Assembly (NCBI RefSeq): GCF_000745265.1
Contig: NZ_JQNN01000001.1
Location: 2,666,001 to 2,730,000 of the forward strand
Reading direction: 5' to 3'
DNA: 64,000 nucleotides
DNA from: Massilia sp. 9096
Lineage (GTDB): Bacteria > Pseudomonadota > Gammaproteobacteria > Burkholderiales > Burkholderiaceae_D
Shown: positions 4,156 to 62,070 of the stretch, piece by piece
Layout: the number at the start of each line of letters is the position of its first letter
How positions within the stretch are numbered: the first letter of the stretch is position 1
Translations under genes and position numbers: made by a program
Notes under the pieces: generated by a model
The model's input: only the letters and a program-made list of their open reading frames with translations
What the model was told of the DNA's origin: nothing
Databases searched by the model: none

Positions 4156-4231
4156 TGGCTCCCCGACCTGGACTCGAACCAGGGACCTGCGGATTAACAG
4201 TCCGTCGCTCTACCAACTGAGCTATCAGGGA
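4156..4231 (-). tRNA. tRNA-Asn(GUU), copy 2
   Basis: Identical in all 76 nt to copy 1 (anticodon GUU, CCA encoded). It is followed on the minus strand by the hairpin at 4116-4139 and preceded by a strong promoter. Confidence 0.97.
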
Positions 4232-6659: not shown

Positions 6660-6735
6660 TGGCTCCCCGACCTGGACTCGAACCAGGGACCTGCGGATTA
6701 ACAGTCCGTCGCTCTACCAACTGAGCTATCAGGGA
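6660..6735 (-). tRNA. tRNA-Asn(GUU), copy 3
   Basis: Identical to copies 1 and 2 across all 76 nt. A minus-strand TATAAT lies 13 bp upstream of the 5' end. Confidence 0.97.
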
Positions 6736-6817: not shown

Positions 6818-6893
6818 TGGCTCCCCGACCTGGACTCGAACCAGGGACCTGCGGATTAACAGTCCGTCGCTCTACCGACTGAGCTATCAGGGA
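6818..6893 (-). tRNA. tRNA-Asn(GUU), copy 4 (D-loop variant)
   Basis: 76 nt with the same stems and GUU anticodon as the other copies. One D-loop base differs: CTCAGTCGG instead of CTCAGTTGG. All stems pair. No TATAAT is visible upstream; the palindromic element at 6900-7018 begins 6 bp before its 5' end. Confidence 0.95.
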
Positions 6894-6899
6894 ACGGTG

Positions 6900-7018
6900 G
6901 GGGTCTCAATCAAGCTGCTGCGCGTTGCATTTTCGGTTTGCGATGCTCGCCGTACCGTAAGTACGGCTGCGCTTCTCAACCGAAACTGCGGCCGCTCGCG
7001 ACGCTTGCTTGAGACCCC
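6900..7018. repeat. nested palindromic element, copy A
   Basis: Three concentric stems separated by unpaired blocks. Outer: 6900-6915 with 7003-7018, 15 of 16 pairs (GGGGTCTCAA with TTGAGACCCC, then CAAGC with GCTTG). Middle: 6927-6938 with 6978-6989, 11 of 12 pairs (TTTCGGTT with AACCGAAA). Inner: GCCGTAC 6949-6955 with GTACGGC 6961-6967. The unpaired blocks CTGCGCGTT, TGCGATGCTC, TGCGC.TCTC and GCCGCTCGC recur in copy B at 61774-61893. It lies between the aminotransferase 3' end and tRNA-Asn copy 4. I know no named family for it. Confidence 0.75.
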
Positions 7019-7070
7019 GATACGCAAGCGGGATGTCAAAGCGACATCCTGTTAGCGAAGAGCCGGGATT

Positions 7071-8282
7071 TTAGAGAACTTTTGCGATGGCGTCAACGAC
7101 GCGATCGATGTTCTTCGAGTTCAGCGCGGCGACGCAGATGCGGCCGGTATCGACGGCGTAGATCGACTCGTTGCGCAGCTGGCCGACCTGCTCCTTGGTC
7201 AGGCCCGAGTACGAGAACATGCCGACCTGCTGGCGCACGAATTCGAAGTCCTTGCCAGGCGCTTTTTCGGCCAGCTTTTTCACCAGCTCGTCACGCATCT
7301 CCTTGATGCGCACGCGCATGCCGGCCAGCTCGTCTTCCCATTTCTGGCGCAGTTCCGGGGTCGACAGCACGGTCGCGACCACCTTGCCGCCATGGGTCGG
7401 CGGGTTCGAGTAGTTGGTGCGCACGATGCGCTTCAGCTGCGACAGCAGGCGCGCCGCTTCTTCGCTCGAGGAAGCCACCACCGACAGCGCGCCGACGCGC
7501 TCGCCGTACAGCGAGAACGACTTCGAGAACGAGTTCGACACCAGCAGCGGGCCACCGGCGTCCACGAAGCGGCGCACCACCGCGCCGTCTTCGGCGATGC
7601 CGGCGCCGAAGCCCTGGTAAGCCATGTCCAGGAACGGAATCAGGCCGCCGGCCTTGACCGCCTCGATCACCTGGCCCCACTGCTCGGGGGTCAGGTCGGC
7701 GCCGGTCGGGTTATGGCAGCAGGCGTGCAGCACGACGATCGCGCCTTCCGGCATCGCCTTCAGTGCGGCCAGCATGCCGTCGAAGTTCACGCCGTGGGTC
7801 GCCGGGTCGTAGTAGGTATAGTTGTTGACTTCGAAACCGGCGCTTTCGAACAGCGCGCGGTGGTTTTCCCAGCTCGGATCGCTGATGTAAACTTGCGAGC
7901 CCGGCGCGAAACGCTTGAGGAAGTCGGCGCCGATCTTCAGCGCGCCGGTGCCGCCCAGTGCTTGCACGGTGATCGCACGCTTCTCTTGAATTACCGGGCT
8001 ATCGGCCCCAAATACGAGTTCTTGCACAGCCTTGTCGTACGTACCGAGGCCTTCGATCGGCAGATAGGTACGCGGTGCAGGCTGTTCCATCAACATCGCT
8101 TCCGCTTTGCGCACGCATTCCAAGAGCGGCACTTTTCCGTTGTCATCATAGTAGACACCGACGCCCAGGTTGATCTTGGCCGGGTTGGCATCTGCATTGA
8201 AGGCTTCGGTAATGCCCAGGATCGGGTCGCGCGGGGCCATGGCGATGGCGCCAAAGATGCTGGCAGGAGCTGTGGAATTCAT
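7071..8282 (-). CDS. aspartate/aromatic amino-acid aminotransferase (class I, PLP)
   Basis: 403-residue PLP enzyme that moves the amino group between aspartate or aromatic amino acids and 2-oxoglutarate. It has the AspC/TyrB layout: N-terminal FGAIAMAPRDPILGITEAF, INLGVGVYYDDNGKVPLL, and the substrate-binding YLPIEGLGTYDKAVQEL. The PLP site follows, with LHACCHNPTGADLT, then DMAYQGFG, then the Schiff-base lysine in SNSFSKSFSLYGERVGAL. The C-terminal substrate arginine is in GRICVAALN. AspC and TyrB cannot be told apart by eye, so no symbol is given. Past its 3' end lies a small hairpin (GGATGTC 7031-7037 with GACATCC 7043-7049) and then the palindromic element at 6900-7018. It is divergent from uvrB. 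Confidence 0.93.
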   Translation of the reverse strand: MNSTAPASIFGAIAMAPRDPILGITEAFNADANPAKINLGVGVYYDDNGKVPLLECVRKAEAMLMEQPAPRTYLPIEGLGTYDKAVQELVFGADSPVIQEKRAITVQALGGTGALKIGADFLKRFAPGSQVYISDPSWENHRALFESAGFEVNNYTYYDPATHGVNFDGMLAALKAMPEGAIVVLHACCHNPTGADLTPEQWGQVIEAVKAGGLIPFLDMAYQGFGAGIAEDGAVVRRFVDAGGPLLVSNSFSKSFSLYGERVGALSVVASSSEEAARLLSQLKRIVRTNYSNPPTHGGKVVATVLSTPELRQKWEDELAGMRVRIKEMRDELVKKLAEKAPGKDFEFVRQQVGMFSYSGLTKEQVGQLRNESIYAVDTGRICVAALNSKNIDRVVDAIAKVL

Positions 8283-61773: not shown

Positions 61774-61893
61774 AAACAGCTTCATGAACCTACTGCGCGT
61801 TGCAGATTCGACCTGCGATGCTCGCTGTACTCGAGTACAGCTGCGCGTCTCGGTCAAATCTGCCGCCGCTCGCTACGGTTCCTGAAGCCGTTT
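61774..61893. repeat. nested palindromic element, copy B
   Basis: Outer stem 61774-61790 with 61877-61893, 15 of 17 pairs, unrelated in sequence to the outer stem of copy A. Middle stem 61802-61813 with 61852-61863, 11 of 12 pairs (GCAGATT with AATCTGC, GACC with GGTC). Inner stem GCTGTAC 61824-61830 with GTACAGC 61835-61841, loop TCGA. Blocks between stems (CTGCGCGTTGCA, TGCGATGCTC, TGCGC.TCTC, GCCGCTCGC.AC) match copy A (6900-7018). Confidence 0.75.
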
Positions 61894-62039: not shown

Positions 62040-62070
62040 TTGACCCGCTAAATGATAATGGTTATCATTT
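62040..62070 (+). promoter_or_regulatory. Fur box overlapping a sigma70-type promoter
   Basis: A perfect palindrome, AAATGATAA-TGG-TTATCATTT (62050-62070), matches the classical Fur box. It overlaps TTGACC (62040-62045), 17-bp spacer, TATCAT (62063-62068). The predicted start point is about 62075, at the ATG. Iron repression is expected. Confidence 0.8.

Follow-up and report, generated by a model that had tools for sequence, protein, structure and literature searches.

Several groups of short repeats in bacterial genomes resemble the element described here. YPAL/RU-2 and ERIC of enterobacteria are also multi-copy intergenic palindromes of 100-200 nt, and PMC2229807 reports filled and empty sites and target duplications for them, as well as co-transcription of both ERIC and YPAL. 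Their likeness to our element lies in these features. REPs measure 20-40 bp and carry a single terminal tag, according to PMC3733652, and REP/BIME sequences are associated with RAYT (Y1_Tnp) transposases. Insertion sequences of the IS5 family (NF033581 group) have given rise to MITEs that, like our element, are short, dispersed and without a transposase of their own. Finally, the Xanthomonas sRNA sX9 (Rfam RF02228) is one of the 20 annotated sRNAs that PMC9029176 lists as most prevalent in bacterial genomes. A search of the openly readable literature by taxon, repeat type, sequence and sX9/YPAL found no description of the element. In our reading, it is probably a non-autonomous MITE of ~120 nt with IS5-type (NF033581) terminal repeats, which would move in trans and whose complement-strand fold would afterwards stay under selection.

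The window (the whole analysed stretch, 64,000 nt of a Massilia sp. 9096 contig) contains two copies, A and B (Table 1). The initial annotation had described the blocks between their stems as nearly identical, and indeed TGCGATGCTCGC (6939 and 61814) and CTGCGCGTTGCA (6918 and 61793) each have two exact matches within the window. The paired stem switches that it listed between the copies (T-A to A-T, G-C to A-T, T-A to C-G twice and, in the inner stem, C-G to T-A) can be read in both sequences, and one further pair is intact in copy A and broken in copy B (C-G to C.A). The outer arms are 94% complementary in copy A (6900-6915/7003-7018) and 88% in copy B (61774-61790/61877-61893), while the middle stems reach 92% in each (6927-6938/6978-6989 and 61802-61813/61852-61863). 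Folding was much stronger than in dinucleotide shuffles (z -6.34 for copy A and -5.77 for copy B; 0 of 200 shuffles equal), and the complement strand of copy A also folded well (z -5.68 against shuffles). In an Rfam scan of the window, no family reached its gathering score at copy A or B, and the region around copy A (6880-7100) held 0 sites resembling an intrinsic terminator (GC-rich stem plus T run).

Table 1. Features of copies A and B and tRNA-Asn genes in the window (+, strand as printed)
Feature	Position	Strand	Remark
Copy A, whole element, 119 nt	6900..7018	+	
Copy A, 5' outer arm, putative diverged terminal inverted repeat	6900..6915	+	10/17 vs IS5-type end, base 6899 included
Copy A, 3' outer arm	7003..7018	+	9/17 vs IS5-type end, base 7019 included
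Copy A, lower conserved loop, 5' side CTGCTGCGC	6915..6923	+	
Copy A, lower conserved loop, 3' side GCTCGCGACG	6994..7003	+	
Copy A, middle stem, 5' side	6927..6938	+	inverted-repeat search
Copy A, middle stem, 3' side	6978..6989	+	inverted-repeat search
Copy A, upper conserved loop, 5' side TGCGATGCTC	6939..6948	+	
Copy A, upper conserved loop, 3' side TGCGCTTCTC	6968..6977	+	
Copy A, apical stem-loop GCCGTAC-CGTAA-GTACGGC	6949..6967	+	
Copy B, whole element, 118 nt	61775..61892	+	site empty in 17/17 relatives where located
Copy B, lower conserved loop, 5' side CTACTGCGC	61790..61798	+	
Copy B, upper conserved loop, 5' side TGCGATGCTC	61814..61823	+	
Copy B, upper conserved loop, 3' side TGCGCGTCTC	61842..61851	+	
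Copy B, lower conserved loop, 3' side GCTCGCTACG	61868..61877	+	
tRNA-Asn (gtt) genes, four	2114-2189, 4156-4231, 6660-6735, 6818-6893	-	

Copies A and B belong to a large family of repeats. In their own genome (5.71 Mb in 2 contigs), the loop pattern had 27 exact matches, compared to 0 for the reversed control, and BLAST recovered 40 matches (40 scored of 81 candidates). A covariance-model search, which had been proposed with the initial annotation, gave 67 matches at E ≤ 1e-3 (model R1, built from 39 aligned copies in alignment A1; 150 scored of 6058 candidates), far more than random hits, although two of these repeat other listed copies on the reverse strand, and some matches are weak or short. 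Most own-genome copies are ~120 nt long, and some carry a 15-nt insert at one fixed place. At the same threshold, R1 matched 14 of 31 genomes. All 14 (1 to 66 matches each) are among the 19 genomes of the same genus; the 12 genomes from the order's other families had no match. Within the GTDB family, 236 of 392 genomes matched at E ≤ 1e-8 with 8 candidates scored per genome, and these represent 32 of the 44 genera; twelve genomes from 11 other genera, picked as matching, had 5 to 75 matches each. Contigs with the exact pattern, among the matches listed, came mostly from Massilia and Telluria and also from Pseudoduganella, one Herbaspirillum and other Burkholderiaceae. Elsewhere in the class, a family-wide model (R2) matched 23 of 368 genomes at E ≤ 1e-6; most of these matches are ~151 nt long and have an extra tier.

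BLAST, which finds fairly similar sequence only and is thus a weak test, gave no match for copy A among plasmids and phages or for a genus-g18 copy among plasmids. The gammaproteobacterial relatives gave none in phages or E. coli and one partial plasmid match, a Yersinia frederiksenii stretch that matches such a relative at 88.5% over 52 nt and has no R2 match at E ≤ 1. The core pattern is present in three putatively viral IMG/VR contigs (L458, L459, L460). At one locus (L136, G297:C1:4355845-4356103), two equal-scoring copies stand in direct tandem 1 nt apart, and four short forms (L339, L342, L343, L179) keep the arms and lower loops and lack much of the upper hairpin. These short forms, together with an arms-only locus (L266), are probably deletions inside the hairpin.

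The element shows several marks of mobility, in line with the mobile hairpin that the initial annotation had named as one option: besides being dispersed, its copies have filled and empty sites and 4-nt direct repeats at their ends. None of the 17 relatives in which the copy B site was located has it filled (an eighteenth gave no match), and counterparts of copy A were seen by eye in G006 and G009 only and were absent in the other 16 of 18 relatives. Further filled/empty pairs came from 14 locus comparisons, several of them uninformative. In 13 of 273 distinct copies the two stem ends are bordered exactly by a 4-nt direct repeat, compared to 1.1 expected from permuted right flanks. Two diagonal offsets next to it were also raised (11 vs 1.2 and 8 vs 1.6), and these are probably the same repeats lengthened by C or G. 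The test was weaker at looser offsets (18 copies with at least 5 nt vs a mean of 8.7, maximum 15), and longer direct repeats were barely above the permuted control (22 vs 12, maximum 18, for at least 6 nt; 4 vs 2.9 for at least 7 nt). The 4-nt repeat thus marks only ~5% of copies and most show none, which, with the near-control counts of longer repeats, weighs against an IS5-type MITE. We also considered that the core had been inserted into pre-existing hairpins, which is not the general case because the empty sites of L142, L261 and L255 lack arms by eye. L266, with arms and no core, is best read as a core deletion, as the more distant L029 is filled.

A REP-like mechanism, one of the options raised initially, would have the element moved by a RAYT (Y1_Tnp) transposase. 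The two systems are alike as intergenic palindromes, GTAG adjoins both lower loops on the complement strand of our element, and Y1_Tnp matches were found in 37 of 39 genomes searched. However, a search of the own genome for Y1_Tnp (PF01797) at E ≤ 0.001 gave no hit, while control genomes did match, and this although the copy B site is empty in 17 of 17 relatives. None of 30 Y1_Tnp loci (one per genome for most, from a longer list) carried a copy at E ≤ 0.05 (best E 0.1), and motif clusters near Y1_Tnp genes (L363, L369) both lie inside coding sequence. Duplications of 4 nt at the ends of an element do not fit the HUH mechanism. Taken together, we regard movement by RAYT as highly improbable.

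The ends of the element instead resemble those of IS5-family insertion sequences. The majority arm GGGGACCTCGAAAAACC, from 176 copies nearly all in Massilia/Telluria, matches IS5-family ends at 16 of 17 bases, and in 109 of these copies at least one arm reaches 12 or more of the 17 bases, compared to 0.14% of letter-shuffled arms. The 15 copies with a duplication average 14.2 of 17 matches, and the other 270 average 11.5. Arms of the types GGGGACCTCGA..., AACRCCTGACC... and GAGACCTCTGC... were distinguished, and in one gammaproteobacterial relative (L309) the arm, by eye, is exactly GGGCACCTCGAAAAACC. Allowing at most 3 mismatches, GGGGACCTCGAAAAACC had 149 matches in G166 and G207 (genus g24) vs 15 for the reversed pattern, and besides element arms these included isolated GGGCACCTCGAAAAACC and GGGCACCTCGAATTACC, the two ends of a ~1.23-kb insertion sequence of this genus. 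The insertion sequence is complete in L464 and L472, with other copies cut by contig ends; the L472 copy encodes an intact 341-aa transposase, and the open part of the L464 copy matched NF033581 (IS5 family) at 8.7e-70 and PF01609 at 1.3e-24. This IS5-type transposase, the putative cognate one, is present in both g24 genomes. The element core was not found within the insertion-sequence copies that we read, and a search for an autonomous partner with CTRCTGCGC-type inner motifs yielded 18 candidate pairs among the loci examined, all chance-like by eye.

Seven of 25 listed plasmid IS5 relatives were compared (Massilia, Pandoraea, Thauera, Pseudomonas, Aromatoleum, Comamonas, Acidithiobacillus). 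Six share the end type, and the Thauera copy is without a convincing end pair. Among the six with recognisable ends, L479 and L484 have a 4-bp duplication, L482 has a 5-bp one and three have none; the two complete g24 copies also have no target duplication, and these absences count against an IS5-type MITE. So do the majority arm of genus g18, with just 10 of 17 matches to an IS5-type end, and a tblastn search of 1.97 Mb, including the window and own-genome element loci, in which an IS5 transposase appeared only in loci chosen for it, plus a 34% relative in L302. On balance, the filled and empty sites, the 4-nt repeats and the IS5-like arms argue for a MITE: it is a short dispersed repeat with terminal inverted repeats, target duplications in a subset of copies and presence/absence polymorphism, and it is probably moved in trans by an IS5-type transposase, judging from these sequence features. 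It agrees with IS5-family insertion sequences and their MITEs in its ends and 4-nt duplications, and differs from them in its nested hairpin core, two near-fixed internal loops and co-evolving arms.

Both arms of copy A (10 and 9 of 17) and copy B (9 and 8) match the IS5-type end poorly, and the two copies therefore look old. The initial annotation had considered their outer stems unrelated in sequence yet both paired. The pairing stands, but unrelated origin does not, as the evidence points to the arms of A and B being diverged forms of one terminal inverted repeat. In the 31 least IS-end-like copies, arms are 84% complementary, compared to 60% when arms are swapped among same-class copies. 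Old copies have lost the end sequence and retained the pairing, i.e., pairing outlives sequence.

The covariation extends over the whole hairpin, in agreement with the initial proposal that the fold is kept by compensatory change. RNAalifold on the 39 own-genome copies gave 43 consensus pairs, 23 of them with two-sided changes; 94.8% of pair cells are standard, whereas shuffling the 3' letters gave 82.0% (none of 500 shuffles reached the observed value) and sliding the partners 40.7% or less, and the outer stem (the terminal inverted repeats) is present in 39 of 39 copies with 90.3% of cells paired. Across 44 sequences from 12 genera (alignment A3), two-sided changes occur in 37 of 48 pairs, and 88.7% of cells are paired vs 68.8% shuffled and at most 40.9% with slid partners; in both alignments the letter shuffle leaves the relatedness of copies in place. 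The hits were not confined to random ones, and the stem changes were compensatory. Hardly any variation is seen in the loops CTRCTGCGC / GCTCGCKACG and TGCGATGCTC / TGCGCTTCTC, and in the upper loop region one A-U pair became G-C in four sequences of A3.

Comparison of copies at the same site in 46 orthologous pairs, which are partly non-independent, found 174 two-sided and 16 one-sided pair-keeping changes in stems, with 100 one-sided and 41 two-sided pair-breaking changes; internal loops differed at only 49 of 1702 cells. Two-sided changes could also come from template switching between the arms at replication, so that pairing would be maintained by mutation rather than selection, and clustered changes in both arms at orthologous sites (e.g., L007/L203) are what such a process would leave. 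It would, however, erase the conserved mismatched loops that have hardly changed, and the strand bias described below is equal across GC-skew sides. We consider template switching improbable.

Repeated insertion of different elements at the same spots could likewise make part of the between-species compensation a matter of replacement. Wholly different arms occupy one place in L045/L159/L184 and L024/L130/L244, L231 and L254 have the element in opposite orientations at nearly one place, and nine of the 46 orthologous pairs look replaced and not diverged. In the remaining 37, however, most sequence is kept, and the two arms of a copy match each other more closely than do arms taken from similar copies. 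Replacement as a source of part of the compensation is unlikely in our judgement, if less so than the mutational account. As a separate observation, an upstream stop codon abuts the element at one place across species, with differing arms, in L024/L130/L244 and in L013/L236.

Residual mismatches in the stems carry information on which strand folds. In 206 copies, omitting two columns with ancestral polymorphism, wobble positions on the printed strand were 126 A.C vs 31 G.T, and the outer stem with one polymorphic column kept had 99 vs 25. One-sided losses at the 37 retained orthologous pairs, with the nine replaced-looking pairs dropped, were 30 A.C, 2 G.T and 26 other (p 2.5e-7). Ten of the 30 A.C losses lie in the two columns with ancestral polymorphism, which weakens the strand inference; without them the count is 20 vs 2. 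A second set from other genera gave 48 A.C to 15 G.T, with one column supplying 22 of the 48. Predicted energy was lower for the complement in 170 of 206 and 78 of 79 copies. An A.C on the printed strand is a G.U or G.T on the complement, from which we infer that the complement of the printed strand is the one that folds, as RNA or single-stranded DNA. The initial annotation had proposed a fold as structured RNA or as a folded DNA strand; a single-strand fold is upheld, while the printed strand has to give way to its complement.

The bias is alike whichever way the neighbourhood is transcribed: A.C to G.T was 32:8 where the printed strand is mRNA, 32:6 where the complement is, 11:2 for both and 26:9 for neither. 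The constraint therefore seems to act on the element's own strand and not on an mRNA running through it. By GC-skew side, the ratios were 24:4 and 32:8, with 66:18 in flat regions. A strand-specific mutation process could still account for the A.C excess.

Genomic placement bears on a further alternative, in which the element is a structured RNA within host transcripts (a 3'-end stabiliser, processing site or attenuator), as proposed for ERIC/YPAL, and its mobility is incidental. Mapping of copies to genes, also suggested at the outset, placed many directly after stop codons: of 148 stops that face a copy, 41 abut or overlap the element and a further 38 are no more than 20 nt away (median 16 nt). 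Strong covariation and stability and the reported co-transcription of ERIC and YPAL agree with such a role. However, 199 copies placed with a heuristic gene finder show no orientation preference in tandem spacers (the printed strand is sense in 48, the complement in 42), and 43 stand between divergent genes, where neither neighbour reads into them; the others are convergent (29), overlap a predicted frame (32) or stand at locus edges (5). The 54 copies placed in the own genome comprise 22 tandem (11 and 11), 14 divergent, 9 convergent and 9 overlapping. As the A.C bias is also independent of mRNA direction, a purely transcript-borne role appears improbable to us, though slightly less so than template switching.

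In the window, copy A lies between an aminotransferase-like gene (7071-8282, minus strand) and the tRNA-Asn gene at 6818-6893 (minus strand), which starts 6 nt from it. Several relatives have one or two tRNA-Asn genes over the stretch examined. At the end of the aminotransferase gene, a promoter-like site (7068-7096, minus strand; 10 of 12 matches, expected 0.1) would give a transcript reading the complement strand of copy A and then the tRNA-Asn. Copy B is 28 nt upstream of a sucA RNA motif (RF01070, 61662-61746, minus strand, 80.7 bits) and may therefore sit in the sucA leader or promoter region. A palindrome, AAATGATAATGGTTATCATTT at 62050-62070, precedes a plus-strand gene, and we take it to resemble a Fur box.

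Mechanistically, an IS5-type MITE under selection for its fold could be pictured as follows. An insertion sequence of the IS5 family (NF033581 group) would have supplied the outer stem, as its terminal inverted repeat of ~17 nt. The DDE transposase of such an insertion sequence would bind the repeats in trans and insert copies mostly between genes, in many cases directly behind a stop codon. Once a copy is in place, the complement, 5'-GTAGCGAGC...GCGCAGTAG-3', would stay under selection for its fold, as RNA or single-stranded DNA, and because this fold stays selected the arms would drift in sequence but keep their pairing. The internal loops, purine-rich on the complement (GAGAAGCGCA / GAGCATCGCA), may be held fixed by contact with a putative ligand.

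The relatives in Gammaproteobacteria connect the element to sX9, whose 76-nt Rfam model spans the 3' half of these copies. Among 8 such loci scanned, sX9 was above its gathering score in L304 and L301 and below it in L303 and L318; it had no match at E ≤ 1 in either window copy or in three other family loci. In L301 and L304 a larger nested hairpin surrounds the match, and the sX9 family may thus be a fragment of a mobile repeat. It corresponds to one half of the hairpin and runs opposite to the inferred folding strand; this orientation stands against our reading of the element.

We tentatively entertain the broader possibility that an IS5-type MITE with a selected single-strand structure, each copy acting on a fixed strand, unites the Burkholderiaceae repeats, sX9 and perhaps YPAL, and rate it as somewhat short of likely. 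If so, copies would keep acting as structured RNA or as a single-stranded DNA ligand whatever the neighbouring transcription, and one very widespread superfamily of mobile structured elements in Pseudomonadota would so far have been known only in pieces. The element would offer a mobile-element origin for sX9, and structural work could draw on its copies as a natural library of covarying variants. Whether bacterial palindromic repeats are kept by the host or by movement alone becomes testable now, because pairing outlasts the transposon-end sequence and the residual mismatches suit one strand, whatever the transcription or GC-skew side.
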